IMG/VR virus record: IMGVR_UViG_3300027759_000407
Location: 1 to 24,462 of that record
Length of the DNA stretch: 24,462 bases
Origin: a virus
Strand: one strand, 5' to 3'
Shown: one piece after another, positions 1,564-16,041 of the stretch
Layout of the letters: each line of letters opens with the position of its first letter
How positions within the stretch are numbered: position 1 is the first letter of the stretch
Notes under the pieces: generated by a model
Told to the model about the DNA's origin: nothing
Database searches by the model: none
The model's input: the letters and a program-made list of their open reading frames with translations, nothing else
Translations under genes and position numbers: made by a program

Positions 1564-1861
1564 GGCATTATTCAAACCGCCCAGACATTTGGTTAAAGAA
1601 TGGCCAGAGGTCTTTGAGGACCTCTACATGAATACAATGCCTGTAGCCTATCTGATACTTTTGCGGTTAGAATTTACTAATGGTCGGATATGGGAAATCA
1701 ATGTTCAAGAGCAATTGGCAAACGCCGAAGCTGACGAAATTGCTAACAAGCTCTTGAATATATTTCAGGAGTATAGGAATGATATTAAAAAGATAGATTT
1801 TCAAATGGATGTAGAACGTTTAAAAAACGACATCCAGGAAAGTTCTAAAAATCTTTTATGA
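1556..1861 (+). CDS. Conserved phage hypothetical protein (101 aa), GTG start
   Basis: The start codon is GTG at 1556, inside the end of the previous gene (eight-base overlap). The next in-frame ATG would remove the conserved-looking beginning (KPPRHLVKEWPEVFEDLYM), so GTG is preferred. A weak GAAGAGG at 1546-1552 may act as ribosome binding site. The N-terminal half looks like a small alpha/beta fold with GRIWEINV; the C-terminal half is a charged amphipathic helix that could form a coiled coil. I recall similar unnamed proteins in marine T4-like phages; no function is known to me. It is the last gene of the + strand row. Its final 17 bases overlap the end of the convergent - strand gene, with no hairpin terminator visible between them. 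Confidence 0.78.
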   Translation: MSKALFKPPRHLVKEWPEVFEDLYMNTMPVAYLILLRLEFTNGRIWEINVQEQLANAEADEIANKLLNIFQEYRNDIKKIDFQMDVERLKNDIQESSKNLL

Positions 1862-3053
1862 AATATGATTCTGTTGAGTCAATAACACGATCAAGCATAA
1901 TTTTTTTAAAATCTAAAGTTTTATAATGATAGAAATTATGTTTGATCGTGTTGTTCCATTTATAAATTGCAGTTCGTCTACTTTCAGGATCTTGCACACA
2001 CCAATTTCTTAAAGATTGGTGAAACTGTAAAAATCGGTTGCTGTCATCGGCAATATCATCATAACTTTGATCAAGGCCGTCAAAGTCAGTTATAAATCCC
2101 CAGCTTCTTAATTTTCTTAGAGTGCCGCTTTGCCCTAATATCACAAAGGGATGACCTACTAATAACGGTCTAAATGTTTTTTCAGTAATGAACAATCCGC
2201 CTGTTTGATTAAAATGACTTTCAGTTACAACTGTTAGTTGACTATTTTCATATATTTCAAGATTGTTAATTAAGTTTGGTACTTGGTTCACTAGATCTGC
2301 TACATCTACAGTCTTGGGATAGTTAGCTGTTAATACAGATTTATAATGATTGTATTCTACTGTTTGGTATATCGGTGTATCAATACTGTGTGTACTAAAC
2401 CAAGCTCCACCGCTTACTAGACCTTGTAATTTATTCTCAGCAAGAAAATATAGATGTTCTGTTCTATGATTTCTATGAGCACGGTTTAAACTATTAAAAG
2501 GTAAGCAATGATCTTTTATAGTAACAGGCTGTGTTAAATGTACAGAATTGTTTGAAGTTTTTCCGTCCCACTCGATTCCTTCTTGAAATTCTATTAGTTC
2601 ATCTTGATTATGTTGATTACACCAGTCTGCATATTGTTGTCTTGCATTCAAGTTACCGGAAATTATTAGTAGTCCGTGTTTTGGCAACCTTAATAGTTTA
2701 ACAGTATTGTGCAAATGCAAGAACCCATCAAAATCTTCTTTGGTAAAATTGTCTCCCTCTACAATTGACAAAATAACAATTCTTAATTTTTTATTTTTAA
2801 CAGCAGAAATAACTTTACTTCGAATATCTAATAAAATATTTGAACTAGGCTTCGATATTTTTGCACACCAAAGACTAGGTATTTTGCTAACTTCAATTAG
2901 ATATATTCCTGGAGAATCATAGCTATCAGAATATACAGGTGTAAAATCTGACTTTAATAAACTTTCTTTTAATTCCTGTAGGGTTCTTACATTGTTAATT
3001 TGTTCTATATAAGAAAGATTAACGTTGTTGCAATCATCAAAATAACAAAGCAT
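1845..3053 (-). CDS. Putative phage/marine glycosyltransferase-like protein (402 aa)
   Basis: Two motifs define it. The first is LNRAHRNHR at residues 189-197. The second is a C-terminal block with VVTESH at 275-280, ITEKTFRP at 289-296 and HPFVILG at 301-307, followed by a SWGF and SYDDI pattern near 317-333. The same two motifs occur in the 430-residue protein at 6944-8236 and in the C-terminal half of the 705-residue protein, so this is a local paralogous family. The block with Glu before an EKT motif and a Gly/Pro-rich strand resembles the nucleotide-sugar site of GT-B transferases (GT10 and exostosin types), hence the call; donor and acceptor are unknown. Translation is coupled to the upstream methyltransferase by TAATG, with AGAGGA just before. 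It is the last gene of the - strand row and ends in TAG. Confidence 0.65.
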   Translation of the reverse strand: MLCYFDDCNNVNLSYIEQINNVRTLQELKESLLKSDFTPVYSDSYDSPGIYLIEVSKIPSLWCAKISKPSSNILLDIRSKVISAVKNKKLRIVILSIVEGDNFTKEDFDGFLHLHNTVKLLRLPKHGLLIISGNLNARQQYADWCNQHNQDELIEFQEGIEWDGKTSNNSVHLTQPVTIKDHCLPFNSLNRAHRNHRTEHLYFLAENKLQGLVSGGAWFSTHSIDTPIYQTVEYNHYKSVLTANYPKTVDVADLVNQVPNLINNLEIYENSQLTVVTESHFNQTGGLFITEKTFRPLLVGHPFVILGQSGTLRKLRSWGFITDFDGLDQSYDDIADDSNRFLQFHQSLRNWCVQDPESRRTAIYKWNNTIKHNFYHYKTLDFKKIMLDRVIDSTESYFIKDF

Positions 3054-3637
3054 TATAATCCTCTAGAAAGTATAACTCCATTATTGCCCGAATAGACTAT
3101 TTTGTAATTATGAATCAATAAAAAGGGAACTACCGCGCCAGACTTACCTATGTATATTCCTGCAGACTCAACATACGGTGTATCGTCACAGATAATCAAA
3201 GATTGTTCTGCCATATAGGGTAAACAATTGATCATTTGTTTAAGATGTTCAACCTGACTGCCTAAATTTGACCATTGAATATTATATTTGATATACTGTT
3301 CTTTGATCCTGTCAGCATTAAGTCCTGGATTAGACCAATCATAGTTGTCTAAATATAAAACTTTTATTTTTTTATTTAATGTTGGCAGAACTTCTTTAGC
3401 CCAGGTAGCGCCGTCTCTAATTTCCCATCTTATGTTTTCTAGATGAGTAAATTTATGTTTAACTTCGTCAACAATGTCAACAGTATAAAAAGGTAATTCT
3501 GTTCCCACAGACAATCCATTAAAAAACGGTGTTGACCCTTCGTCGCGGTCGCTGCCTATTTCTAATATTATATCTGTGTCTTTATTATAAGACAGCTGTT
3601 CTAAGTAAGGTTGAGCATTAAGATGAAAGTTTGACAT
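3053..3637 (-). CDS. Putative SAM-dependent methyltransferase (194 aa)
   Basis: A Rossmann-type class I methyltransferase pattern is visible. A glycine motif (ILEIGS at 24-29, followed by a DEGST turn) would bind the SAM methionine part. A strand ending in acidic residues follows (YTVDIVD at 51-57), then VLYLDNYDW at 93-101 and LIICDD at 147-152. This order fits the Methyltransf_24-like families often found in sugar and polysaccharide gene clusters. The glycine motif is less perfect (GSDRDEG) than the textbook GxGxG, so activity is likely but not certain. It is joined to both neighbours by one-base TAATG overlaps. Among glycosyltransferases and an epimerase, O-methylation of a sugar is the obvious inferred role. 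Confidence 0.65.
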   Translation of the reverse strand: MSNFHLNAQPYLEQLSYNKDTDIILEIGSDRDEGSTPFFNGLSVGTELPFYTVDIVDEVKHKFTHLENIRWEIRDGATWAKEVLPTLNKKIKVLYLDNYDWSNPGLNADRIKEQYIKYNIQWSNLGSQVEHLKQMINCLPYMAEQSLIICDDTPYVESAGIYIGKSGAVVPFLLIHNYKIVYSGNNGVILSRGL

Positions 3638-4341
3638 TATATAAATTGACTACGATGCGGGGGAGTTTCATGCGTAGCATTACTACTATAATAAAACTGA
3701 ATAAAATTTTGTCTTGTTACATTTTCAGGGCAAGTTAAAGGATTAGGGTGTCCGTGTATTAGGCGTTCATCATAATTCCAAATAGCTAATCTGTTAGGCT
3801 TGGGTGCAATTTTAACTAGACATTGAGTTTTATCAAAATCCCAAAATTCTAGATCGCCGCCCCAACTATCGTCCCATTCAGAATTCATATACAATATTAT
3901 ATTAACACGACGGGTAAGTCTAAGCTGCTCATTCCAATTGAAGTCATTATGCAGACCCAGGCTGTTTCCGCTAGATACACGAGTAATGCCGCCGCCACGA
4001 TAGTGTGGATCACCTACTAGTTTGTCAATGCCTGTCAGCTGCTCTATCCAGTTGAGAAATTGGGCTCCTTGAAAACTGTAGGCCATTGACTGTATTCTAG
4101 GAGTGCTGGTAAAGTTCCTACACTCTTTTCTATAACTTGTTCCGTTGCTGAACACAGTCCAATCAGTTTCCTGAAGGAAATCAACTTCAAAACTCAAGGT
4201 GTTGAATAGTTCTTCTGGTAGAAAATTGTCTATGATCGTATAAGGAACTGGAGAACCCGCAGCATGGCTTACTGCTAATTCAGCAGGGCTGTAATGCTGA
4301 TTCAATTCATTAAAGAATTTGTATATTTGACTGTGGCTCAA
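3637..4341 (-). CDS. 2-oxoglutarate/Fe(II)-dependent oxygenase (234 aa), TTG start
   Basis: The double-stranded beta-helix signature of the prolyl-4-hydroxylase-like superfamily is present. The metal pair is H131-x-D133 (in GLHNDFNW), followed by a strand RRVNIILYMN and a GGDLEFWD turn. The distal iron histidine is most likely H196 (LIHGHPNP), and R210 in TRQNFIQFYY is placed to hold 2-oxoglutarate. All expected ligands are present, so the enzyme should be active as a hydroxylase or related oxidase. The substrate is unknown; in this context a sugar, lipid or fibre side chain are options. The start is TTG, chosen because AAGGAG lies five bases upstream and no in-frame ATG is near. The beginning overlaps the epimerase fusion gene by 32 bases. 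Confidence 0.85.
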   Translation of the reverse strand: MSHSQIYKFFNELNQHYSPAELAVSHAAGSPVPYTIIDNFLPEELFNTLSFEVDFLQETDWTVFSNGTSYRKECRNFTSTPRIQSMAYSFQGAQFLNWIEQLTGIDKLVGDPHYRGGGITRVSSGNSLGLHNDFNWNEQLRLTRRVNIILYMNSEWDDSWGGDLEFWDFDKTQCLVKIAPKPNRLAIWNYDERLIHGHPNPLTCPENVTRQNFIQFYYSSNATHETPPHRSQFI

Positions 4342-6427
4342 AATGACTCCTTAAAAATTCAAACGATGTATTGTGTGATTTATTGTCTTTCTTAGAAAGC
4401 AATATTTCACGGTTTTTAGTTGCGATTAAACGACAATTAAACAACAGATCGTCGTATTGATCTTTTGGTAATTCTGATATTCTTTTTATTTCTGCAACTA
4501 TCATACTCAGTCTTTTGTGATTATCTTCTTCGAGATCGTATGATTCGTTTATATATGGACTAAATGTTTTAAATCCTAGACTACGGAAGTCTTCTAAGAA
4601 GTATGCTGTAGAAAATGCAATAAAGGGCTTGCCGCAGGCAATGGGCTTATTGGTTTTTTCTGTTATACTGCTTGGCGCTAGATCTCTTAACTTGCCCTTA
4701 CTGATATCTACATAATAAGACACATCGTAGTGTGTTTCTACTAGAATATGAAAATCTGCGTTTAGGATTGCATCGTAGGTTACATCACCCCATTTGTTTA
4801 GAACATTGTCGTTAACATCTAGTGCATAAGGCACTCCGGATAACCAAGTGTCTACCGTGGAATCTATTTTAAAATTCAGTGCCGTTAGATCTTTGGTCAT
4901 TGTGTCTTTGTCAAAGTATCTAACTTCACCATAGGGGAATATGTTGTAAAAACTATATCTGAAGTCTTTTAATAGATCCTGCTGCGCCAGTTTAGCATAT
5001 AGGTGCAGTCTCCAAGGACGATAATTTCTACTTAGCATACTGAATTTGTGTTCAGTGTGTTGATTATCGTGTATCTGTGTTTTTGCCAATAGATCGTTAA
5101 ACACTCCAATATTAACTCCGTAGACTGCTAGTTCAGTTAGTCTATCAGTTAAGAATTTCCTATGAACTTCGTCCATGACAATTATATACAGCTTTGCTGG
5201 ATGAATGTTTTTTTCTACAATTACTTGTTTGATATCGTGTGCTAGTTTATATGTAAATGTTTCGTTGCAATTTTCGTAGATAAATCTAGCAGTGGGATCT
5301 GTTCGTAGATGATCCCAATGTTTATTTTCCATACTGTCTATTAGGCCAACGCCTTCATGTAAATCATAATAATAATGGAAATAGTAAATTGTATCGGGCG
5401 CACATTCGCACTCGGATAATGGGGCCACAATATTTTTGTTTATTTTTAGATCATAGACCTTGCCTGTTTTACTAAAAATCTTTTTTTGACTTTTAATCCA
5501 GGCATAGGTCTTTTCTAGTCCGTACTCTAGTGTGTCAGCAGGGGCCCACCCTAATACGCCTTTGATATAATCATTATGGCTGTTGCGACCCATTACTCCT
5601 TGAGGACCAGGAATGTTTTTAATTGAAATATTTTTTCCGGCAATCTTAGCAATTAACATTACAAGATCATTAATGCTAATCATTCTTTCACTGCCAAGAT
5701 TAAGAGGTCCTTGAGTTTCTCCGTTAACTATTTTATGTATACCTTCAATGCATTCGTCAATGTACATAAAACTTCTAGTTTGATTACCTGGCCCCCAAAC
5801 TTCTACTTCGCCTGTGCTTTCAATTATCTTGCGGCAAAGTGCTGCTGGTGCTTTTTCTCTACCATCACACCAAGATCCAAGTGGTCCGAATACATTGTGT
5901 AGTCTAGCAATACGAACAATAAAATGATAATTTCTAGCATAGCTTAGGTATAGGCGTTCACTGAATAGTTTTTCCCAACCATACTCGCTGTCTGGTTCTG
6001 CAGGATATGCACTTTCTTCGCTGCACAGAGGGTTGTTGGGATCTAATTGATTATATTCGGGGTACACACAGGCGCTGCTGGTATAAAAAACTTTAAATAC
6101 TTTTTTCTTAACCATCTCATTGAGAATATTAAGATTTATTGTGGCACTATTATGCATGATATCAGCATCGTTATCGCCGGTGCTAATAAACCCTGCACCA
6201 CCCATATCTGCTGCTAGTTGATAGATACACCAAAGTTCTTCTATTACAACTTTAGCAACATCGTCTTGATTACGGAGATCAACAATGTGAAATTCGTCTG
6301 CATCTGTTTTACTAAATGAAGGATATTTTAAATCAGCACCTATAACATAATATCCTTGTTGCTTTAAACTAGTTACTAAATGAGTTCCAATAAACCCACC
6401 AGCTCCGCATACTAATACTTTTTTCAT
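4310..6427 (-). CDS. Fusion: GDP-mannose 3,5-epimerase + glycosyltransferase-like domain (705 aa)
   Basis: Residues 1-315 are an extended short-chain epimerase: NAD-binding GAGGFIG at 8-14, ADMGGAGFIS near 73-82, SSACVYPEY at 117-125, Tyr149-x3-Lys153, REKAPAALCRK at 190-200, and GPQGVMGRNS further on. These fit GDP-mannose 3,5-epimerase, which converts GDP-mannose to GDP-L-galactose and GDP-L-gulose. From memory, the plant enzyme's catalytic residues are C145, Y174, K178 and K217. Here C120, Y149, K153 and K192 stand at the same spacing (constant offset of 25). Residues about 340-705 are a second domain with LSRNYRPWR (465-473), ITEKTNKP (588-595), PFIAF and NESYD (627-631), shared with the 402- and 430-residue proteins and probably a glycosyltransferase. 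AAGGA precedes the ATG, which is coupled by TAATG. No stop or frameshift separates the halves. Confidence 0.85.
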   Translation of the reverse strand: MKKVLVCGAGGFIGTHLVTSLKQQGYYVIGADLKYPSFSKTDADEFHIVDLRNQDDVAKVVIEELWCIYQLAADMGGAGFISTGDNDADIMHNSATINLNILNEMVKKKVFKVFYTSSACVYPEYNQLDPNNPLCSEESAYPAEPDSEYGWEKLFSERLYLSYARNYHFIVRIARLHNVFGPLGSWCDGREKAPAALCRKIIESTGEVEVWGPGNQTRSFMYIDECIEGIHKIVNGETQGPLNLGSERMISINDLVMLIAKIAGKNISIKNIPGPQGVMGRNSHNDYIKGVLGWAPADTLEYGLEKTYAWIKSQKKIFSKTGKVYDLKINKNIVAPLSECECAPDTIYYFHYYYDLHEGVGLIDSMENKHWDHLRTDPTARFIYENCNETFTYKLAHDIKQVIVEKNIHPAKLYIIVMDEVHRKFLTDRLTELAVYGVNIGVFNDLLAKTQIHDNQHTEHKFSMLSRNYRPWRLHLYAKLAQQDLLKDFRYSFYNIFPYGEVRYFDKDTMTKDLTALNFKIDSTVDTWLSGVPYALDVNDNVLNKWGDVTYDAILNADFHILVETHYDVSYYVDISKGKLRDLAPSSITEKTNKPIACGKPFIAFSTAYFLEDFRSLGFKTFSPYINESYDLEEDNHKRLSMIVAEIKRISELPKDQYDDLLFNCRLIATKNREILLSKKDNKSHNTSFEFLRSHFEPQSNIQIL
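4347..4352 (-). promoter_or_regulatory. Ribosome binding site AAGGAG deciding a TTG start
   Basis: Read on the - strand, AAGGAG is followed by five bases and then TTG at 4341-4339. It lies inside the 3' end of the upstream epimerase fusion gene. This is the best Shine-Dalgarno match in the - strand block and is the reason for accepting a TTG start for the oxygenase. Confidence 0.7.
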
Positions 6428-6972
6428 TATTTTTCCTTTTTCTTTAACAATGTTAAAGATCCAACTGTTTTTACCATTTCAAAGTTATTTAATTTAACCA
6501 GTTGCTGTATATTTTTTTCTACATCAGGACAAAATTCATTGTGATCATGTATTAACAACAACCCGCCTATTTTTATAAATGAAGACCAACGATTAAGATT
6601 ATTATGTAATACAGGATCAAAATGTGTACCATCTTCAAAATATAAATCTATTTCTGTGTTCCAATCGTTAAAATCGGACCGTGCATTACCGCATAACACT
6701 TCTACATTATTATACTTAGACAATATATCTTTAACTCTTTTATATTCAATGTTTATTAGATCCGTGCTTTCTCCGTTAACTGAAAATAAATCAACTGTAT
6801 AAATTTTAATGTTAGGATTAGCTAGAGCCATTATTGTTGCCGATCCGCCAACTGCTGTTCCTATTTCAAATACTATTGAATCTGGAGGAATACCTGAAAC
6901 TATTTCTTTTAAGAATATTATTTCAGGAACAGTCATCATAGCATCATATTCCATATTTTTCCAAAAAGGCAT
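6427..6972 (-). CDS. Class I SAM-dependent methyltransferase (181 aa)
   Basis: The order of motifs is clear: VFEIGTAVGGS at 34-44 (SAM-binding glycine loop), YTVDLF at 58-63 (acidic strand end), DLYFEDGTHF at 109-118 and GGLLLIHDHN at 136-145. This is the typical arrangement of the Methyltransf_24 family, where the Asp-Gly-x-His pattern and the later His-Asp pair lie at the active site and may bind a metal. The 181 residues match a single minimal domain. The gene begins inside the end of the 430-residue glycosyltransferase gene (29-base overlap) and ends with TAA overlapping the epimerase fusion ATG. It is a more canonical methyltransferase than the 194-residue one. The inferred role is O-methylation of a sugar made by this block; the acceptor is unknown. 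Confidence 0.8.
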   Translation of the reverse strand: MPFWKNMEYDAMMTVPEIIFLKEIVSGIPPDSIVFEIGTAVGGSATIMALANPNIKIYTVDLFSVNGESTDLINIEYKRVKDILSKYNNVEVLCGNARSDFNDWNTEIDLYFEDGTHFDPVLHNNLNRWSSFIKIGGLLLIHDHNEFCPDVEKNIQQLVKLNNFEMVKTVGSLTLLKKKEK

Positions 6973-8236
6973 CTATCTCAATGTCCTGCATTGTATTTAA
7001 ATGAGCTGCATTATAGTCAACAATATTTTTAACTGCATAGGTAAAATCAATCTTTACATGATCAGGCCAACTGGCAATTGATGCAATAGTATTCATAATC
7101 ATTTTAAAACGCAGTTTATCGTCTTTTTCAAGGTCGTAACTTTCGTCCCAAAATTCTCCAAAAGTTTTAAATCCCATATCTTTTACATGTTGTAAACTTC
7201 CGGCAGCTCCTAATAATATAAAAGGCTGCATAAAGGCGATAGGTTTATATGTTTTTTCTGTAATATGTATAATTTTATTAAAGAAATATGTTTCAGTAAC
7301 AATATTAATTAAAGAATCGTTGTAAAGATGTTGTACAGGATCAACACTATCCTCCATAGGGTATCGACTAAAATTAGGATTATCTAATACTAATGGTAAT
7401 AATTTATCGGCGGCTAACACATCCTCGCTGGTTAACTCCATATCTGAAAATCGAGTTAAAAGATATTTGCAATTTTCAACAAATGATCTATTAGCTTCTG
7501 GTTGAGTTTTATCCATACTATAGTAACATTGATTGATTAAACCATATTGAACCATTGCTAGGTACAACATTAGTCGATGATCATTATATCTTCTATTAAA
7601 ACACAAGAATGTTTTTTTACGGGGTCCGGGTTGATATTTTAATATTAACGAGTTTTTTATTGCTGGGCCAACATTACATTTATCAATTCTAAACACTGGA
7701 AAATATTCCATTTGTATCTCAGGCAGTTTGTGATTTCTACGACAATAATCTTCATATACTTCAGTACCGTTGTAACAATTACTTAGATAGATTACCTGTG
7801 TCAATGGAAGACCTTTAGATATAAAATAATCAGATAGATGATTTAAAAATTCGTCGTCCATGTATCCTTCATAGAATAGTGTTACTAAGAAGTAAGCAGT
7901 TTTATTTCTTATGCGTTCTAAAACGTTAAAATGTATTTGATTATTATCAAAGAGGCCGTCAGAATTGTGAAAATTATGGAATTTATCTCTATAATGAAAA
8001 TTGGTCCAATTTAATTCGTATAAAAACACTTCGTCAGGTAATTTATAAGTTGGAGATATTCTAGAATTAAGAATCCTAGAATGAAAATGAGGTTTTTGAA
8101 ATAGGTCTCCCTTTATTTGAGGGAAATGATAATCTACTGATGCTTCCATTAGGTCAGATATAGTAGGAATCCTATTGTTAGTTATGGGGCCGTTGGGCCC
8201 TATCCATTCATATACTAGATTTAATTTTTTATTCAT
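6944..8236 (-). CDS. Putative phage/marine glycosyltransferase-like protein (430 aa)
   Basis: This is the cleanest member of the local three-protein family. FNRRYNDHR at 213-221 is followed by a hydrophobic helix. The C-terminal block has VTETYF at 313-318, ITEKTYKPI at 325-333, PFILLG at 338-343, GFKTF and DESYD at 364-368. The spacing between the two motif blocks (about 110 residues) is close to that in the 402-residue and fusion proteins. The motifs suggest a GT-B nucleotide-sugar transferase, but no exact family can be stated and substrates are unknown. The first 200 residues are specific to this protein. No signal peptide or membrane helix is seen. It overlaps the radical SAM gene by eight bases and the following methyltransferase by 29. 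Confidence 0.68.
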   Translation of the reverse strand: MNKKLNLVYEWIGPNGPITNNRIPTISDLMEASVDYHFPQIKGDLFQKPHFHSRILNSRISPTYKLPDEVFLYELNWTNFHYRDKFHNFHNSDGLFDNNQIHFNVLERIRNKTAYFLVTLFYEGYMDDEFLNHLSDYFISKGLPLTQVIYLSNCYNGTEVYEDYCRRNHKLPEIQMEYFPVFRIDKCNVGPAIKNSLILKYQPGPRKKTFLCFNRRYNDHRLMLYLAMVQYGLINQCYYSMDKTQPEANRSFVENCKYLLTRFSDMELTSEDVLAADKLLPLVLDNPNFSRYPMEDSVDPVQHLYNDSLINIVTETYFFNKIIHITEKTYKPIAFMQPFILLGAAGSLQHVKDMGFKTFGEFWDESYDLEKDDKLRFKMIMNTIASIASWPDHVKIDFTYAVKNIVDYNAAHLNTMQDIEIDAFLEKYGI

Positions 8237-9596
8237 CTTTGCAACTGTTATAAAATTCTATCATTTTTGGAAATATAGAGACAAAATCTGTGCCTCGTCT
8301 GCGATCATATTCTGTGAACCAATTATAAAAATCACGACGTCCTTCTTTTAATTTTTCCTTAGAATAAACAGTAGATTCCATGTAATCAACTACACGCCTA
8401 AATTTTTCATATTCTAAACTATTAAATTTTTCAACATTTTTATCATCGATATTGTTTTTAATAAATTCTAGATGGGCATACATATATGGCATAAATTTGT
8501 CTTTAGGTAAGATATTCATATCATATTGCAACGGTTCTTTTAAATATGGAGTATCAAATCGTACTGTGGCCCATGATCGGTGTTTATATATTTTTCTCCA
8601 TTCTAAAAATTTTTCAAGCAAATCTTGAAAATTAGTAACTGTTAAAATATTAAACGTAATCATAAAAGTTAACGGCAGGTTTGTTTTTGACATATAGGTA
8701 TGAAAATTTTGTTCCCATACTTCTAAATTCAAGCCTGTACGAATATACTCAGCGGGTTTTCCCCAAGTATCTAAACTAGTAAACATTTTAAATGTTTTAA
8801 TTTTCTTTTCACTTAATAACTTATTCACTCGTTCTACTAGTCTTTCCATTAGAATAGGTTTTATTCCAAAATTACTATTAATGTTTACCTCTAAATTAGG
8901 TTTAGGATTTTTATCTAAGTCTTCCAATAGACGCCAGGTACTTTGTTGTAACAGTGGTTCGCCCCCTGTAATGCGTAAGATGTTTAGAGTTTTACTAACT
9001 TCTGGCCACCAACGCCACCAAGCTTCAACATAGGGGTTAGTTTCTTCTTCATAGACTTTAAACCAATCAATGTCATTGCGATGATTCTTGACCATATCAT
9101 ACGGCCCAAAATCTTTAATCTCTTTATAATATGCACTGCTATGTTTAGGATGACAGTATCCACATTTAAAATTGCACTCATTACCAAAGCTAACTTCAAT
9201 ATATTCGGGATTTATATTTTGATTCCAATCACCGTTTTTGATTTGTTCAAATCGATCAGGTCTATATATTGAACTGTTACGTTCTTTTCGATCACTAATA
9301 TAGTCTTCACCTAATGTTTCAATATTCCAGCAATATTGACAACCGCTAGGTTTTTCTCCGTTGAGCATTTCTAATCGTTCTAACTTTTTTTGTTCTGTAT
9401 TATGCAATGCACTAGGATCAATTGCAATTTCATTTAAAGGAATTTTATGGGGACGGGGATGATAGCAACTGTGTGTTTCTCCCGTCTGTAGATATATTGT
9501 AGTATGATGCCATTTAGCCATACAGAAAGTAGGCGAAATTTCGTTCATAATTGGTATGAATTTTTTAATTCTTTCTAAGCTATTGCTATCATTCAT
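8229..9596 (-). CDS. Radical SAM enzyme with N-terminal twitch-like cysteines (455 aa)
   Basis: The core CxxxCxxC motif is C141, C145 and C148 (CNFKCGYC), which ligates the SAM-binding 4Fe-4S cluster. ITGGEPLL near 209-216 is the GGE motif contacting SAM, and later strands (VNINSNFG, FTSLDTWG) fit the partial TIM barrel. Before the core lie C25, C44, C86 and C89 (in GCQYCW), which look like an auxiliary iron-sulfur site of SPASM/twitch type placed at the N-terminus instead of the usual C-terminus. That arrangement fits the family named twitch domain-containing radical SAM protein. The reaction is unknown. Related SPASM/twitch enzymes modify peptides or sugars. It sits among glycosyltransferases and overlaps both neighbours by eight bases, so a sugar or a glycosylated fibre protein is a plausible substrate by inference only. 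Confidence 0.85.
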   Translation of the reverse strand: MNDSNSLERIKKFIPIMNEISPTFCMAKWHHTTIYLQTGETHSCYHPRPHKIPLNEIAIDPSALHNTEQKKLERLEMLNGEKPSGCQYCWNIETLGEDYISDRKERNSSIYRPDRFEQIKNGDWNQNINPEYIEVSFGNECNFKCGYCHPKHSSAYYKEIKDFGPYDMVKNHRNDIDWFKVYEEETNPYVEAWWRWWPEVSKTLNILRITGGEPLLQQSTWRLLEDLDKNPKPNLEVNINSNFGIKPILMERLVERVNKLLSEKKIKTFKMFTSLDTWGKPAEYIRTGLNLEVWEQNFHTYMSKTNLPLTFMITFNILTVTNFQDLLEKFLEWRKIYKHRSWATVRFDTPYLKEPLQYDMNILPKDKFMPYMYAHLEFIKNNIDDKNVEKFNSLEYEKFRRVVDYMESTVYSKEKLKEGRRDFYNWFTEYDRRRGTDFVSIFPKMIEFYNSCKDE

Positions 9597-11613
9597 TGGT
9601 TGTTTTCCATTTTAAAAATTCTTCTTCTAACCAATTAAAATTGTTTATTAATGATAATTTTTCTTTATTATTAATATTGTCTTCGCCATATTTCTTTCCT
9701 GCTTTTGCCCCAGCAATAGAGTATGTGCCAAACGGTTTATCTTCTCCTCGTGAACACCAAGCTATTAATCTTTCTTCAGTTTCTAAATCATATTGTTGAT
9801 CAATTACTTTACTGGCTAATTTAACACATTCACGAAATGCGCTCCTCCATGTGCTAAATGCATCTGTATTGAATTCAGTTACATTAGAAACCGAAGGCAT
9901 AACTTTAAAATTTTTACTTAAACTTGTAGTCATATCTGTGGTATTGGTATCCATGTTAAGGATTAATTTTTTAGGAAGCAACTTTACTCCTCCGTAACCA
10001 TAGAGTAATCCGTTAACTAAATTTAAACTTTTCCAAACGTGTACCGTGTCAAGAAAAATGTCTTTTTCGTTTCTATTGTAATAAGGAATGTAATCTATTT
10101 CAAAGTTAAAATCTTTAATAATAATAGCATCTGCATCAACTACCCAAAACATATCTGTTGTAGCAATCTTTGCTGCTTCAATATGAGCATTATGAATTCC
10201 TTTTACACCATCTATTCTCTTGGCTCTAGGAAACCTATCTGTTAATCTTTTAAAATTTTTGTCTGCGTTAGTTTCGTTGTAACTAATAAAAACTATATCA
10301 AACGGTTTAGGATTACTAACTACAATGTTGTGTTGTTTTTTTTCTATAGGAAATCTATGATCAAACTCTTTTTTAGTAATAGGGGAATTTTTAGAATATA
10401 ATACAACACCGTCGTACCAATCTCCATTTTTAAATACGTGAGTTATGTTTCTATGAAAATGATCATACACAGGAACATAATAACTATTAAAATCAAAATC
10501 TTTATCTAACACAACATCATTACGGATTACCCAAAACATTTCTGTTTTAGTATTTTGTAATGTTGTAATATAATCTTCAAACGTGTTTATTTGAAAAATC
10601 TCAAAAGGAACAGGTATTGATACTTGTATATTCCATTCTTTCTTTTCAACTGGAAATCGATAATTAAATTCTTTAGCTGTTAGTGTTTTAGATCTGCTCA
10701 TTAACATAAGCCCGTCGTAGAAATCCCCATTTTTAAACATGTGAGTTATACTTCGATCATAGTTGTATTTTCCATCATTAGGATCAAAGTAAAAATCAAA
10801 AATGCTGTGATCTACAAGTTCAATGTCTGGCCACACACACCAAAACATCTGTTGAGTTTCATTTTTTAAAATATCTTGATATTCTTGATAGCTATGTATA
10901 ACATATCGTGGATATCGGTACTTGCTAACTACTAGGTCATGTTCTTTTTTATCTACTAAGAATCTGCGATTAAATTCTCTTTTGCTTATTGTTTTTTCTG
11001 TTGAAAACAGTATAACTCCGCTTAGATAAGATTCAACCCCATTGCATGAATTTTTATACACATGATTTTCACTTCGATCATAGTTGTACTTTCCATCATT
11101 AGGATCAAAGTAAAAATCAAAAATGCTGTGATCTACAAGTTCAATGTCTGGCCACACACACCAAAACATAGATTTTGATTTTTCATTTATTAGATTTAAA
11201 TATTCATCATAGGTACTAATATATCTAATAGGGTATTGATACTTACTAGCAACAACATCAATTTCTTTTTTATTAACATAAAATTTAAAATCAAATTCTT
11301 TTTTAAGAATATTTGCTTTTTTAGGTATTAGTGCTACGCCAGAAATAAAAGACTCTGTTCCATAACAACTGTTTTTAAAAACATGTACATAGTCTTCGTC
11401 CCAGGAATGTATACGATAGTCAAAATTAAAGTTGTCAACAATTACAACATCGTCCCAAACTAGCCAAAAGAATTTAGTAAATGATTTCTTTTTAAGATCA
11501 TCAATAGAGTTTACATTTTCAATTTTTTGAGCTGAGGGAAACCGTTCACAAAACTTTTTCCATTCAATATCGCTAATGGTTTTTTTGCTTACATAAAAAA
11601 TATCGTAGATCAT
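9589..11613 (-). CDS. Five-module glycosyltransferase-like protein, four modules degenerate (674 aa)
   Basis: The protein is built from five copies of one core. Each has a Phe-Trp strand followed by an acidic strand, at residues 49, 150, 257, 360 and 489, then a His-x-Phe/Trp-Lys segment and a Gly-Val/Leu-x-Leu strand. The last module (about 436-674) is full length and has VDAD at 492-495 and GLLYGYGGVK at 535-544, closely matching the separate 297-residue protein encoded just upstream (VDAD and GLLYGNGGLK). In modules 1-4 the DxD is replaced by sequences such as VWDD, VWPD and IRND, so only module 5 should bind a metal-nucleotide-sugar. Modules 2 and 3 share a 33-residue stretch that is identical, encoded by a 99-base repeat. 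The start overlaps the preceding gene as ATGA. The extra modules may bind acceptor sugar or scaffold partners. Confidence 0.72.
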   Translation of the reverse strand: MIYDIFYVSKKTISDIEWKKFCERFPSAQKIENVNSIDDLKKKSFTKFFWLVWDDVVIVDNFNFDYRIHSWDEDYVHVFKNSCYGTESFISGVALIPKKANILKKEFDFKFYVNKKEIDVVASKYQYPIRYISTYDEYLNLINEKSKSMFWCVWPDIELVDHSIFDFYFDPNDGKYNYDRSENHVYKNSCNGVESYLSGVILFSTEKTISKREFNRRFLVDKKEHDLVVSKYRYPRYVIHSYQEYQDILKNETQQMFWCVWPDIELVDHSIFDFYFDPNDGKYNYDRSITHMFKNGDFYDGLMLMSRSKTLTAKEFNYRFPVEKKEWNIQVSIPVPFEIFQINTFEDYITTLQNTKTEMFWVIRNDVVLDKDFDFNSYYVPVYDHFHRNITHVFKNGDWYDGVVLYSKNSPITKKEFDHRFPIEKKQHNIVVSNPKPFDIVFISYNETNADKNFKRLTDRFPRAKRIDGVKGIHNAHIEAAKIATTDMFWVVDADAIIIKDFNFEIDYIPYYNRNEKDIFLDTVHVWKSLNLVNGLLYGYGGVKLLPKKLILNMDTNTTDMTTSLSKNFKVMPSVSNVTEFNTDAFSTWRSAFRECVKLASKVIDQQYDLETEERLIAWCSRGEDKPFGTYSIAGAKAGKKYGEDNINNKEKLSLINNFNWLEEEFLKWKTTNE
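10750..10848 (-). repeat. 99-base direct repeat, copy in module 3
   Basis: This stretch matches 11071-11169 at all but one of 99 positions (a T/C difference near the left end, silent in the protein). It encodes the same 33 residues beginning MFWCVWPDIELVD and ending YNYDRS. The copies are in the same frame and 321 bases (107 codons) apart. Sequence outside the repeat has diverged strongly between the two modules. Confidence 0.95.
11071..11169 (-). repeat. 99-base direct repeat, copy in module 2
   Basis: Partner of 10750-10848, in the same orientation and reading frame, with one base difference. It lies in the second module of the 674-residue protein. Near identity in only part of otherwise diverged modules suggests recent gene conversion or a recent local duplication. 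Confidence 0.95.
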
Positions 11614-12488
11614 CTTAGGTATGTATTTGTAAGTTTAATTGTTTCTTCGTACAGGTCTAATGTGTACTTGCTTTGATCAACATCTAAGTAAGGATAATCA
11701 AATCCCATTCCTTGTTTAATTTTCTCTCCTAGATCCTGTATGTCATGCTCTAGTTTTCTATGATCAACGTTTTGTTCATATATGTTTTTTAATATTTCAA
11801 AGTCTCGTACATCAACATAGTTCCATTTAGTGCAATTGGTCATCCACTGTCCTAACCTTGCTCCATGGATAGCATATAAACCGTTTTCTTCATGTGCTCC
11901 AACTGTCGACCAAATTTTTAATCTATGAAGATTATGCCACCATATACGTTCTCGAATTTCATCTGCAGGAACTCGAACTCCATCTAATAGAGTCATTTTA
12001 ACACCCTCTCGAAAACCTGCTCTCCATGCCTGAAATGGGCTTCCTGTAATAACAGTTTCACTGTAACATTCAGAAAACTGTTTATAACCATCTTCCCAAC
12101 AAAAATCTACCTGGCCACGATCGCTATCGCTAGCTTCATGTGTTTTCATGTTTAGGATAAAATCTTTGCGCCATATCTTTAGGCCACCGTTTCCATAAAG
12201 CAATCCGTTAATGCGATTTCTGGCCAGCCAACTATAAACCTGTATATTTTTATTGTTAGGATCAAATTCCAAATTAAAAAATCTATTGTCTACAATGTTA
12301 TCAGCATCAACAGTAATAACCCATTCTGTTTCGCTGGTTTCTGCTGCGGCTTTATGTGCGGCATCACTACCTTTAACTCCGTGTACACGTTTAGCCCAAG
12401 GTACCTTATTACACAAATCAGCATAATGCTGGTCAGCGTTTGGTTCGTCATAACTTAAAAAAACTATATCAAGTTCTAATGTCTTCAT
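11610..12488 (-). CDS. DxD glycosyltransferase-like protein (292 aa from ATG)
   Basis: A GT-A-like nucleotide-sugar transferase pattern: an N-terminal strand LDIVFLSYDEPNAD, a WAKRVHGVKG segment, then WVITVDADNI with the metal-binding Asp-Ala-Asp, then NGLLYGNGGLKIW and a QAWRAGFREGVKM helix. The family is a viral/marine type I cannot name exactly. The C-terminal module of the next gene is a clear paralog. I chose ATG at 12488. A TTG five codons earlier (12503) is also possible and would add MTSIH; a purine run AAGAAGAA lies before that TTG but is not a convincing binding site. The 3' end overlaps the next gene as ATGA. It overlaps the preceding gene by about 20 bases. Sugar and acceptor are unknown. 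Confidence 0.72.
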   Translation of the reverse strand: MKTLELDIVFLSYDEPNADQHYADLCNKVPWAKRVHGVKGSDAAHKAAAETSETEWVITVDADNIVDNRFFNLEFDPNNKNIQVYSWLARNRINGLLYGNGGLKIWRKDFILNMKTHEASDSDRGQVDFCWEDGYKQFSECYSETVITGSPFQAWRAGFREGVKMTLLDGVRVPADEIRERIWWHNLHRLKIWSTVGAHEENGLYAIHGARLGQWMTNCTKWNYVDVRDFEILKNIYEQNVDHRKLEHDIQDLGEKIKQGMGFDYPYLDVDQSKYTLDLYEETIKLTNTYLR

Positions 12489-13071
12489 ATGTATACTTGT
12501 CAAAAATTCTTCTTGTATAAATGCTAAACTTTTGAGATAGCTCTAATTTAAAACGATGTGGATACTTTACTAATTCGTTAACATTAAAACTAATCATTTC
12601 TTTTAATACATTAGGATCATTATACTCAGTTATTAAAAATATCATATCTTGATCTCCTTGCCATTCTATAGTTTTTAATAAAGGATTAATTTTAAATGTC
12701 AGTACCAGTTCTTGCCTATGGTATTCTATAGCTATGTCAGGTTTTGTAATATTGCTCCAACGTTTATCAACAACTCTGTGTAACACATCGTCAATCTTAT
12801 TAAGACCAGTAATTGAGGCAAGATTTACCTTAATGAGTTTTCCAGAAACTATATCTACTTTATAATGTCTTAAAGTGTCGCCTCTTTCGTATATTCCTAA
12901 TGCAATATCTAACTCTACTTGTATTTTATTTTTAATATTATTAACAGAAAAACCTGGATGCAATGCTATAACATTTCCTTCATTATCAAATTCAAAGAAA
13001 TAAGTTTCTTCAGGTACTTCAATGGTTTTAATCCATTCATCAAAAGGTGCTAGATCTAGGTGTTCTTCCAT
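12469..13071 (-). CDS. Phage protein of unknown function (200 aa)
   Basis: I do not recognise this protein. It is soluble, rich in beta-strand-forming and charged residues, begins MEEHLDLAPFDEWIKTIE and contains FEFDNEGNVIALHPG and later IEWQGDQDMIFLITEYNDPN. There are no cysteine clusters, glycine loops, DxD or signal peptide. GGAG five bases before the ATG supports the start. It lies between two glycosyltransferase genes and overlaps both (16 bases with the upstream gene), so it is surely co-translated with them. It may be an accessory or acceptor protein of the glycan pathway, or a small virion protein carried with it. I have no basis to decide. Confidence 0.7.
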   Translation of the reverse strand: MEEHLDLAPFDEWIKTIEVPEETYFFEFDNEGNVIALHPGFSVNNIKNKIQVELDIALGIYERGDTLRHYKVDIVSGKLIKVNLASITGLNKIDDVLHRVVDKRWSNITKPDIAIEYHRQELVLTFKINPLLKTIEWQGDQDMIFLITEYNDPNVLKEMISFNVNELVKYPHRFKLELSQKFSIYTRRIFDKYTYEDIRT

Positions 13072-13892
13072 ACTATCTCCTCTAGGATACTGATTAATTC
13101 ATCTGTAATAATATCCTTTTCAACATAATGAATTATATCAGTCTGTTGGTAATTACCAATTTTTAAGCTGCCGTTGCTCTTAAGATAAAACCCTACATGA
13201 TCGGTCACCCGATCAGTATCCCACGGCCAGTTTTGTACCTGCGGTTTTAAATGTACTACTCTTGGAAAATCTAAAGGGTAGGCTATTTCGCAGTCAATGT
13301 CTAGAAGCTTGGCCGACAACGCAAAGGCTTCGTCTGTTCCTATGACTTTAGGTATGTGATTATTTAAATAGAGATTTTTAAATTCCTGAGGGTTAATAAA
13401 AATCTGTCGGGCTAATTCAAAAAATTCATGTCTACATTCTTTTTTAAAAAAAGTCCACATTGAATATAAATTGGGCAGATCGTTTTTGGTAAATGCTTTA
13501 CGATAAGCATCACTAGTAACTACCTCACCTCTAAATGTGTAAGCACGATTAGCTACATATAATTCTGTGTTTTCTATAAAATAATCAATCCAGTGGCTGT
13601 AATCTCTAAGGAACAGCATATCTGCATCTAGACAAACGGTGTGCTCCCAAGGAGTTATTTCATCCATCCACGAACGGCCATCCCAAAACTTTTGTTCGGG
13701 CCATTCTATAATCTTATCAAATACCCAAGGACTTTTTAATTTATCAACTGGTGATTTGTCGTTAATAACCAAAGCTACTCGATCGTAACCTTGTTTTTGT
13801 GTGTTTTTAATACTTAAGGCTAGAGCATAGGCTAGTTTAAGATAGTCAATATCAGGATGGGCTGCTACAAATATCAAATAACCAAAGTTCAT
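13056..13892 (-). CDS. GT8-like glycosyltransferase (278 aa)
   Basis: The N-terminus is a Rossmann-like strand and helix (YLIFVAAHPDIDYLKLAYAL). CLDADMLFLRD holds the DxD at residues 89-91, the metal and nucleotide-sugar site. GTDEAFALS at 185-193 is the typical GT8 region near the catalytic centre, and a late HYV at 255-257 could supply the second metal ligand. Order and length fit GT8 or closely related retaining transferases such as those of lipopolysaccharide assembly. The gene is a paralog of the one before it. GGAG precedes the ATG at proper spacing and the start overlaps the upstream stop as ATGA. Donor and acceptor cannot be told from the sequence. Confidence 0.78.
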   Translation of the reverse strand: MNFGYLIFVAAHPDIDYLKLAYALALSIKNTQKQGYDRVALVINDKSPVDKLKSPWVFDKIIEWPEQKFWDGRSWMDEITPWEHTVCLDADMLFLRDYSHWIDYFIENTELYVANRAYTFRGEVVTSDAYRKAFTKNDLPNLYSMWTFFKKECRHEFFELARQIFINPQEFKNLYLNNHIPKVIGTDEAFALSAKLLDIDCEIAYPLDFPRVVHLKPQVQNWPWDTDRVTDHVGFYLKSNGSLKIGNYQQTDIIHYVEKDIITDELISILEEIVWKNT

Positions 13893-14749
13893 ATTAACTC
13901 CAGAAGACTGTCAGCGTTTCTGATTATGCTTTGTTTATTCATAATATGAACATCAGTACCCTTAGTTGTAGCAGCCCAAAAAGCAGAGACATCCTGCGGC
14001 TGACTAACTAAAAAAGTCAGTTTATTGTTGTCAACACTATGTAAAATATCTTTGTCAAAAACAGTAAGGATAGACGGAAGTGTGTAGGCAAATTCTGTTT
14101 CAAATCCGTTCATAATGTGTTTAGCAACACTAAAGGCAATGTCATTTCTAAACTGTTTAGGATTAAATCGGAATAGGTCAGCATAATAAACATAGTTGTC
14201 TTTGACAAAATCTACCAGTTTAAAAAAGAATTGACTTTCAACACTTTTATCAAACATCACAGTAGTTGCCCAAAACATGTGGATACCAGTTTCACTTACT
14301 CGACTATCTAATACGCCGCCACGCTCTCCGGTAAGGTCTGTCATACTGTGACCCATCATCACCGGAGCATCTACTGACCAATACTCATTTAATTTGTTAG
14401 AAAAGATTAAATAGTCGCTGTCTATCAGCAAGGTTTGGTCATAGGGGCTAAGTTCCCAAACGCTGTATCTATTTGAATTTACAAATGGAATAATTTTGCT
14501 TTCAAATCCATCGTGTAGATTTCTCACATTCTTAGTGTAAGGTCTGTTAACTTCTATAATTTGATCAAAGACTTCTTGTGCTTTAATCAATGTGCCTGAC
14601 TCTTCTAACCAAGATATTGTGCCTAAATCAGTTACAAGACTTACAGGAACACCTAAATTCTTTTTGGCAAGACCGCCTGCAATTATGGCCATTAAACCAT
14701 AATCAATATCAGGACTGTTGTGAGCAAATATTAGTACGCCTTTGGTCAT
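13889..14749 (-). CDS. GT8-like glycosyltransferase, diverged (286 aa)
   Basis: It shares with the next gene the opening (VLIFAHNSPDIDYGLMAII), a DxD strand (LLIDSDYLIF, Asp110-Ser-Asp112), a RNDIAFSVAKH segment at 201-210 in place of GTDEAFALS, and a final HIMNK near 268. It is therefore a second, more diverged member of the same GT-A family, and the two probably arose by tandem duplication. No membrane or secretion signal is seen. Both ends are coupled by ATGA overlaps, with GGATG as a modest binding site. It is the first enzyme of the glycan block after the small 116-residue gene. Substrates are unknown. Confidence 0.72.
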   Translation of the reverse strand: MTKGVLIFAHNSPDIDYGLMAIIAGGLAKKNLGVPVSLVTDLGTISWLEESGTLIKAQEVFDQIIEVNRPYTKNVRNLHDGFESKIIPFVNSNRYSVWELSPYDQTLLIDSDYLIFSNKLNEYWSVDAPVMMGHSMTDLTGERGGVLDSRVSETGIHMFWATTVMFDKSVESQFFFKLVDFVKDNYVYYADLFRFNPKQFRNDIAFSVAKHIMNGFETEFAYTLPSILTVFDKDILHSVDNNKLTFLVSQPQDVSAFWAATTKGTDVHIMNKQSIIRNADSLLELI

Positions 14750-15096
14750 ACATCCAATAACTTTTCAACAGATCTACTTGATTTAATTTTTTGATAATCT
14801 TCATAGTATTCGTAGGTAGCGGTAAAATACCTATCTATGATTTCATCTTTAAAAGTCTGTAGGTCAGCTACGAGTACTGGATTTCCGTTTTCGTCAACAA
14901 ACGGTACATTTTCGGTACGGCCTTGATCAATTAACATCTGAACAAATACAATGAGTTCGCGATTGATTTTGAATAGGCCGCCAGCATGACCGTAGGTCAA
15001 CTTTGCGTTGATTTTTTCTTTAAGAGTTTTTCTCTGAATAGCGAGAGTTTGTCGATAATTGGCAAACTCTAGAGCTTTAGATAATCTTTTGTCCAT
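14746..15096 (-). CDS. Conserved phage hypothetical protein (116 aa)
   Basis: The protein begins MDKRLSKALEFANYRQTL and is largely helical and charged. A short LTYGHAGGLFKINRELIVFV segment lies in the middle, and the end is YYEDYQKIKSSRSVEKLLDV. The overall pattern (helix, small beta part, then a helix ending in SRSVEKL) recalls a small unnamed protein of marine T4-like phages; function unknown. CGGAG lies well placed before the ATG. It is the first gene after a 57-base gap that holds a weak late-promoter-like site and an inverted repeat, so it may be the leader gene of the whole glycan block. Its stop overlaps the next start as ATGA. Confidence 0.75.
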   Translation of the reverse strand: MDKRLSKALEFANYRQTLAIQRKTLKEKINAKLTYGHAGGLFKINRELIVFVQMLIDQGRTENVPFVDENGNPVLVADLQTFKDEIIDRYFTATYEYYEDYQKIKSSRSVEKLLDV

Positions 15097-15153: not shown

Positions 15154-16041
15154 TTATCCGCCTGTTATTGCGCCTGCTGAATAAGATGACCATGTATAAC
15201 TGGTCCAAGTTCCGCTTGGTGTAAGTGCATGACCGCCTGTAGGATAGGTCAATTCTACAGAATAATTCAGTGTGCCATCAACAATATCTTCCGGTAGTGG
15301 CGGTGCGCCGGGCATTGGGTCAACATAAGGATCATTCCATGATAATACAAAATTAAAAGTTGTAGCTGATCCTATGGCTGCATTTAACGCCACTGAAATA
15401 GCATAATTATTTGATGCATACGGAGCACTTGAATAAATTGAGTATAATGTCGTAGAACCTGTTCCCCAGCCGTAGACTGCTGCGCCACCAAATTCCTGGG
15501 TGCCTGCAGATGAAAGAAGATTACTCCATGCTGTATTTTGTGCGCTGGCAGCGCCACCGGTCCTAGAACTAGCGAATCGAATCTTCCCACCGCCATTCCA
15601 AAAATATCTAGCTTGATCTGCATTAGAAAAATTAAGAGCGTATGTAGCAGAAACAGCACTAGCCCAAGAACTTGTCCTAGAATTGCTGCCTGCGGAAGCG
15701 GTTGTTTTTCTAGAACTATGGCAATTAAATCTATCACCGTCTATTGTAGATGAATAGGCCGCAAAAGAATTAGGATCTGTAGAATTAATTAATTGTCCAG
15801 AAACATTTCCTGCTAGATTAAGGGCGGCAGCAGATCCATTCTGGTGAGCACTTGCATTTAATAAGTCATAACGAATATTATTAAAATCATTTGCTGAGAT
15901 CGTATCGCCTACATTTTTTGTAACACCAAAGGTTGATTGTCCATAACCCCTGCTTAATGATCCTGTACCCATGATACCGACGCCGGTGCCATAGGGGTTA
16001 TAGACATCGCTTGCAAGGGCTGTGGTTCCTGATCCTGCCAT
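15154..16041 (-). CDS. Virion structural / fibre-associated protein (295 aa)
   Basis: The composition is typical of phage tail-fibre parts: very rich in Ser, Ala, Gly, Thr and Asn, with few charges. The N-terminal third contains GTGVGIMGTGSLSRGYGQS and then GDTISANDFNNIRYDLLNAS. I have seen this opening in structural proteins of marine T4-like phages (a turn-rich segment followed by a SANxWNNLRxDL-like helix). The rest looks like beta-strands ending in a Ser/Thr/Trp-rich tail (TWTSYTWSSYSAGAITGG). AAGGATTAG precedes the ATG at good spacing. It follows the 590-residue fibre by nine bases and is the last gene of the fibre block. Exact position in the virion is unknown. Confidence 0.68.
   Translation of the reverse strand: MAGSGTTALASDVYNPYGTGVGIMGTGSLSRGYGQSTFGVTKNVGDTISANDFNNIRYDLLNASAHQNGSAAALNLAGNVSGQLINSTDPNSFAAYSSTIDGDRFNCHSSRKTTASAGSNSRTSSWASAVSATYALNFSNADQARYFWNGGGKIRFASSRTGGAASAQNTAWSNLLSSAGTQEFGGAAVYGWGTGSTTLYSIYSSAPYASNNYAISVALNAAIGSATTFNFVLSWNDPYVDPMPGAPPLPEDIVDGTLNYSVELTYPTGGHALTPSGTWTSYTWSSYSAGAITGG

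Follow-up and report, generated by a model that had tools for sequence, protein, structure and literature searches.

Human LH3 (PLOD3) combines an active glycosyltransferase (GT) domain with a non-catalytic accessory (AC) GT-like domain, which has been proposed to aid substrate recognition (PMC6082870), and B3GLCT, of family GT31, has an N-GT-like domain without a role in transfer and a catalytic C-GT domain (PMC8233153). The common core of GT-A enzymes comprises 231 aligned positions with 8 strands and 6 helices, and the chondroitin polymerase K4CP is termed multidomain (PMC7185993). The protein described here is encoded in a contig of an uncultured phage, IMG/VR record IMGVR_UViG_3300027759_000407, of which positions 1 to 24,462 were analysed (this whole stretch of 24,462 nucleotides is called the window, and coordinates without a locus label refer to it). 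Its gene, P0001, occupies positions 9589-11613 on the minus strand, and the 674-residue product consists of four degenerate modules of ~100 residues, followed by one GT-A-type domain of ~237 residues with an intact VDAD motif. The reading developed below, to which we give an even chance, is that of a metal-dependent GT-A-type glycosyltransferase with a stiff non-catalytic rod of variable length, which would bind its acceptor or bring it into position.

Modules, catalytic domain and predicted fold

All parts of the array protein are encoded on the minus strand, and its four modules are non-catalytic. Module 1 (residues 1-128; 11230-11613) has WDD in place of DAD and retains the β1-α1-β2 N-terminal part of the GT-A core; it is thus unlike modules 2-4, as it keeps an extra N-terminal helix and strand of the full core that the internal modules have lost. 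Module 2 (residues 129-235; 10909-11229), with a shortened N-terminal half, and module 3 (residues 236-337; 10603-10908) both carry WPD at this site, and module 4 (residues 338-437; 10303-10602) carries RND. The C-terminal domain (residues 438-674; 9592-10302) is of catalytic type and GT-A fold by alignment, AlphaFold2 model and Foldseek comparison. It contains the DxD motif D493-A-D495 (10129-10137), which in the family reads V-D-[AG]-D, with both Asp invariant, and which is preceded in the model by the strand 488-493. The alignment of this domain further shows a conserved Y-G-x-G-[GA], a candidate G-loop, and an invariant Asp in DMT; no conserved C-terminal His is seen in it.

The five units are marked by FW strands at residues 49, 150, 257, 360 and 489, and comparison of the protein with itself yields repeat periods of 107, 107, 101-103 and 129 residues. 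A module hidden Markov model (HMM) from other phages, for which the window protein and its near-identical relatives were left out, matches residues 29-125, 130-232, 237-334 and 340-435 with scores of 89-117 bits. It scores 23.8 bits on the catalytic core (residues 473-554), whereas none of 500 shuffled versions of the window protein exceeds 7.5 bits. Chance periodicity is thus ruled out, both by the shuffles and by the independent HMM. At the level of profiles, the modules (306 distinct) and the C-terminal domains (91 distinct) align with an hhalign probability of 98.5% and an E-value of 1.7e-15, and an HMM made from modules only recognises 90 of the 91 distinct C-terminal domains with a median score of 30.4 bits, while the highest score among 1468 controls, shuffled or reversed, is 7.3 bits. 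Judged by these sequence profiles, the modules share common descent with the catalytic domain.

What the modules have lost is clear from the same alignments. The DxD is present at the aligned position in all 87 C-terminal domains and in all 59 proteins of the paralogous partner glycosyltransferase encoded next to the array gene, but in 0 of 309 distinct modules. In place of its first Asp there is mostly W, P, S or T, and at the second position usually D, N or E. A D-x-D is found in 29 modules, but it lies two residues too far downstream, and in none of them is it at the catalytic position. The modules also lack the long loop preceding the Y-G-Y-G-G segment and everything beyond the core, so that, with ~95-107 residues and several elements missing, they fall short of the GT-A common core. 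A single chain therefore holds one DxD-bearing and several DxD-less GT-fold domains.

The AlphaFold2 model of the whole array protein, from 25 aligned relatives, has a mean predicted local distance difference test score (pLDDT) of 86.9 and a predicted template-modelling score (pTM) of 0.62; that of a module pair, from 121 rows, has a pLDDT of 97.0 and a pTM of 0.87, so that the relative orientation of neighboring modules is predicted to be well defined, as in a stiff rod. In the C-terminal domain, the model shows the β-α-β-α-β order of the Rossmann-like N-terminal half and, at the end, a helical C-terminus; the internal modules have the strand-helix order of this domain, minus one helix and one strand near the start. 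The modules are accordingly modelled as a shortened GT-A core, and an unrelated module fold has no support in the models. A Foldseek search of the PDB with the whole protein returns the GT-A enzymes Mimivirus R699, K4CP, SunS, the PBCV-1 capsid glycosyltransferase and ppGalNAcT, at E-values of 2.5e-5 to about 1e-3, with low TM-scores for this multi-domain query. In BFVD, the uncharacterised proteins A0A6J5LK21 (804 residues, E 2.8e-34) and A0A6J5L5L5 (1076 residues, E 1.8e-31) of uncultured Caudovirales match over most of the query; presumably, they are members of the array family, functionally undescribed and of lengths that imply module numbers different from that of the window protein.

These results bear out most of what the earlier note, made from the letters of the window, had said of the gene. 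It had placed the five FW strands at exactly the residues given above, and had described five related units of which only the last keeps the DxD and a full C-terminus, as the profiles and aligned-position counts now show; its picture of a catalytic GT domain that grew a row of inactive copies agrees with the homology, the modelled fold and the DxD counts. An unrelated fold and a periodicity without significance, which it had named as grounds for giving up this picture, were found neither in the structure predictions, where the modules are GT-A-like, nor in the profile and shuffle tests.

Sequence searches leave the family largely unannotated. The array protein has no match in Pfam or NCBIfam and only a marginal one in PHROG (E 0.03), and neither it alone nor the C-terminal profile finds a match by sequence in the PDB; the partner reaches 15.8 bits against Glyco_tranf_2_4, below the cut-off of 27.5. 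Among isolated phages, the array protein, the partner and the stand-alone domain described below are unmatched in 50,697 phage records (tblastn).

The most conserved positions of the modules are occupied by His (100%), Ser (99%), Glu (98%), Lys (98%), Gly (97%) and Trp (95%) in 179 distinct sequences. The conservation of polar residues among these (His, Glu, Lys and Trp), the origin of the modules in a sugar-nucleotide-binding fold and the purifying selection described below are what would be expected of lectin-like modules, each binding one sugar unit, in a multivalent arm that would hold a long glycan to a processive enzyme, or tether the protein to a host glycan. The conserved positions may however be structural, and the acceptor loop and the first Asp of the DxD, which contact sugars in GT-A folds, are lost; we therefore regard a lectin arm as unlikely, if still worth weighing, and the sugar-binding role that the earlier note had proposed for the copies may yet hold.

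Origin of the modules and changes in their number

On a tree of the core sequences, the modules are of single origin: all 211 fall into one clade, with 51 of 52 C-terminal domains grouped in another and 23 of 24 partners in yet another (supports 0.73-0.81). C-terminal domains of ~230 residues that stand alone are found in phages and in 11 of 144 Bdellovibrionia genomes, where several of them adjoin the partner, and a distant radical S-adenosylmethionine (SAM) relative lies downstream in the loci examined. (In Bdellovibrionia, an open reading frame (ORF) of more than 1,200 residues, G103:C106, L288:3823-7500, joins the stand-alone domain to apparent further glycosyltransferase domains; L-codes are the locus labels of compared relatives.) When a tree of 159 tips is rooted on the stand-alone C-terminal domain, the ancestral state is zero modules, with ~3 switches between none and some; module number changes at least 47 times, against at least 100 with shuffled labels. 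By this tree, the single-copy ancestor is a stand-alone orthologue, of ~230 residues, of the C-terminal domain. The 297-residue neighbor, in which the earlier note saw the likely ancestor, forms the separate paralogous clade and co-occurs with both the array protein and the stand-alone domain; with zero modules as the ancestral state under this root, it is a paralogous partner instead. One duplication of the catalytic core would thus have founded the modules, which would afterwards have given up the DxD that binds the donor, the acceptor loop and some of the Rossmann half, and would have multiplied through further duplication and recombination. The near-complete series from 0 to 16 copies in extant relatives, including module-less and one-module orthologues, allows a direct test of how an enzyme turned into a structural repeat.

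The array family is abundant in uncultured viral contigs, where a scan with the C-terminal domain matched at least 600 stretches. Among 168 distinct ORFs complete at the start, a sample biased by the queries, the C-terminal domain is preceded by 0 modules in 33, 1 in 19, 2 in 17, 3 in 15, 4 in 18, 5 in 34 and 7-16 in 32. Phages whose partner is 88-100% identical to that of the window have 0, 1, 2, 3, 4 or 5 modules in a survey anchored on the partner; module number evolves quickly in this system. Two pairs of relatives (L009 and L024, L007 and L017) are 99.9-100% identical except for in-frame deletions of 240 and 207 bases; as these may reflect assembly collapse, the partner-anchored survey is the main evidence for variable number. 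In the loci fetched by module similarity, for which a six-sequence subset of the module alignment served as query, modules joined to other catalytic heads were not found: complete ORFs without the C-terminal domain were split genes, the second ORF having the domain where checked. Two variants of architecture were seen on the way. In L008, L027, L032 and L076, the N-terminal ~150 residues of the long proteins are an extra, more divergent GT-like stretch before the array, and the upstream gene of those long relatives encodes an Anp1-like glycosyltransferase in place of the partner; in L076, L165 and L132, five-module proteins extend ~225 residues beyond the catalytic domain, an extension of unassigned nature.

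A stiff repeated rod, a module number free to vary from 0 to 16, and otherwise near-identical genes that differ by an in-frame internal deletion are features expected of a molecular ruler, in which the number of modules would determine how far along a fibre or glycan the C-terminal domain works. However, module number shows no correlation with how long the fibre gene nearest upstream is (rho -0.01, p 0.95; 33 loci, adjacent fibre genes only), and the length-measuring role that the earlier note had suggested for the copies gains no support from this comparison; we hold it to be improbable.

The array changes by events within the gene. In the window, codons 149-186 of module 2 (11056-11169, minus strand) are identical in 107 of 114 nucleotides to codons 256-293 of module 3 (10735-10848, minus strand), including an uninterrupted stretch of identical codons, the mark of a recent duplication within the gene or of gene conversion. 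In long relatives, the repeating unit is two modules (L009) or three (L018), which shows that blocks of several modules duplicate as well. Between L070, L072 and L086, the synonymous divergence (dS) of the modules and of the catalytic domain is ~fourfold apart, in opposite directions, a sign of recombination within the gene. In L046, L123, L124 and L125-L127, which comprise four divergent sequences, two overlapping ORFs take the place of the single gene, the break falling precisely on a module border; the second ORF starts with an ATG that lies within the overlap (L046:9689-9723; L124 near 8590-8639; L123 near 5269; L125 near 7983-8008). This would be either a version in two chains that has been conserved or a case of programmed frameshifting.

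The fast change of module number, the viability of zero modules, the near-identical tracts within the gene and the mosaic dS between modules and catalytic domain would also be seen if pseudo-domains multiplied neutrally through unequal recombination and were merely tolerated. Over 8-9 modules, the ratio of nonsynonymous to synonymous divergence (dN/dS) is however 0.055 and 0.060 in two pairs of long relatives, compared to 0.021 and 0.035 for the catalytic domain in the same pairs, and ranges from 0.02 to 0.10 for the nine individual modules of one pair; decaying pseudo-domains are thereby ruled out. Moreover, arrays of up to ~1,600 residues stay open, and first and internal module types are distinct on the tree. 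A neutral expansion is thus very unlikely, and the purifying selection under which the inactive copies are preserved makes it probable that they have acquired a separate function.

The gene cluster and the putative role of the array

The array gene is flanked on the window's minus strand by the partner glycosyltransferase P0002 (11610-12503; 297 residues, TVDAD intact) and by a twitch-domain radical SAM protein (8229-9596), which matches NCBIfam NF033640 at 320.8 bits (E 1.4e-95) and passes its cut-off of 170 bits. Beyond the partner follow, on the same strand, a conserved neighbor of ~200 residues to which no function is assigned (12469-13071; a relative in 57 loci), two GT-like proteins without Pfam match, the second of 278 residues with a DAD motif (13056-13892) and the first of 286 residues with DSD (13889-14749), a conserved neighbor of 116 residues between the fibre and GT genes (14746-15096; a relative in 45 loci), and a conserved virion-type protein, presumed to be a tail fibre or appendage (15154-16041), which adjoins tail-fibre genes and has no Pfam or PHROG match. 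This order of fibre, 116-residue, two GT-like, ~200-residue, partner and array genes is constant from 0 to 7 modules, and the cluster comes directly after virion genes, including those for an Mtd_N/Peptidase_S74 fibre-type protein and a Gly-rich laminin-G-like protein. Partner and C-terminal domain are fused in one ORF of ~540 residues in L096, L100 and L115, and a single 812-residue ORF in L207 (6879-9314) is an in-frame fusion of a module, the C-terminal domain and the twitch radical SAM protein; these fusions support a shared pathway.

In the proposed mechanism, the C-terminal domain would perform the sugar transfer, the rigid array would hold or present the acceptor to this single active site, and the array enzyme would work with the adjacent partner and the twitch radical SAM protein. 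For this acceptor, a polymer of repetitive structure that the phage itself produces is probable; its tail fibres are the likeliest candidate, ahead of a host surface glycan. More tentatively, and with rather less than an even chance, the modules may be a new repeat domain, of half size and derived from GT-A, that stacks into rods with as many as 16 units. Each phage would then adjust the number of units at this one locus to suit its acceptor, such as the tail fibre in use, and the array would be a rapidly evolving, modular system of acceptor recognition built from dead enzyme copies.

Several observations weigh against a rod that serves the acceptor. Relatives with zero modules retain the same neighbors, and the array is thus dispensable for the core activity. 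Nucleotide-sugar genes in the cluster, in the window as well as in L117, are equally consistent with a modification of the host surface, which is therefore a possible target too. A Foldseek search with the module pair has no significant match (best E 0.054); its top 50 matches are all, by name, GT-A glycosyltransferases or related nucleotidyltransferases.

A further possibility is that the modules help the catalytic domain or the partner to fold or to assemble, as an intramolecular chaperone or an oligomerisation domain would. COSMC, a GT-A homologue without DxD, serves T-synthase as a chaperone (PMC7185993), and the partner gene is adjacent in most loci; however, the module-less catalytic domain exists with the same partner, and a chaperone role would leave the presence of as many as 16 copies unexplained, so that we see little likelihood in this explanation.

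The cluster has further contents of its own. A 2OG-Fe(II) oxygenase (3637-4341) is present in just four loci of the set; an oxygenase and glycosyltransferases in one cluster are reminiscent of hydroxylation followed by glycosylation. Three proteins of one family (1848-3062, 4313-6478 and 6947-8257) have the C-terminal motif ITEKT...KP...G...LGF; one of them is fused to an NAD-dependent epimerase, and the shared part has no Pfam match. The G+C content of positions 6001-13000 is 0.29-0.33, compared to 0.35-0.45 in the flanking virion genes, so that the cluster may be acquired.

Together, these genes point to an uncharacterised phage glycosylation pathway, with two GT-A enzymes and a twitch radical SAM protein beside tail-fibre genes. 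A literature search found no paper on a twitch radical SAM protein in phages. Both GT components of the pathway and the distant radical SAM relative are also present in Bdellovibrionia, and the array family is widespread yet unannotated.

Comparison with described glycosyltransferases

A limited full-text search of the literature for tandem or inactive GT arrays in phages yielded eukaryotic precedents only, and no description of a GT-A core cut to ~100 residues and repeated up to 16 times. The closest of these precedents is the combination, in one chain, of an active GT-A-type domain with a catalysis-dead GT-fold domain, as in LH3, entries of which are among the Foldseek matches; LH3 has however a single, full-size accessory domain and a hydroxylase domain, whereas the array proteins have 1-16 half-size modules, and there is no detectable sequence similarity. 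The array protein shares with B3GLCT the order of the copies, the inactive GT-like one being N-terminal and the catalytic one C-terminal, but B3GLCT is a eukaryotic secretory enzyme of another GT family with one full-length GT-like domain. With COSMC (GT31; PMC7185993), the modules have in common that a GT-A homologue has lost its DxD and has a non-catalytic role; COSMC, in contrast, is a separate, single-domain chaperone protein.

Among the structural matches, K4CP of E. coli K4 (PDB 2z86/2z87), one of the best Foldseek targets, likewise has several GT-A domains per chain. Both GT-A domains of K4CP are active; in the array protein, the DxD occurs in the last unit only. The Mimivirus R699 collagen glucosyltransferase (PDB 9dyt) and the PBCV-1 capsid glycosyltransferase (PDB 2p72), which is described as acting in the glycosylation of the major capsid protein, are viral GT-A enzymes, as the array protein is predicted to be, and are among the best structural matches; neither has module arrays, and no relationship to them was found at the level of sequence profiles. 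The array protein works like an enzyme with pseudo-enzyme accessory domains that, by sequence, stands outside the families of LH3, B3GLCT and COSMC: inactive enzyme copies have so far been known as single accessory domains, and here the catalytic core has become a repeat unit under selection.

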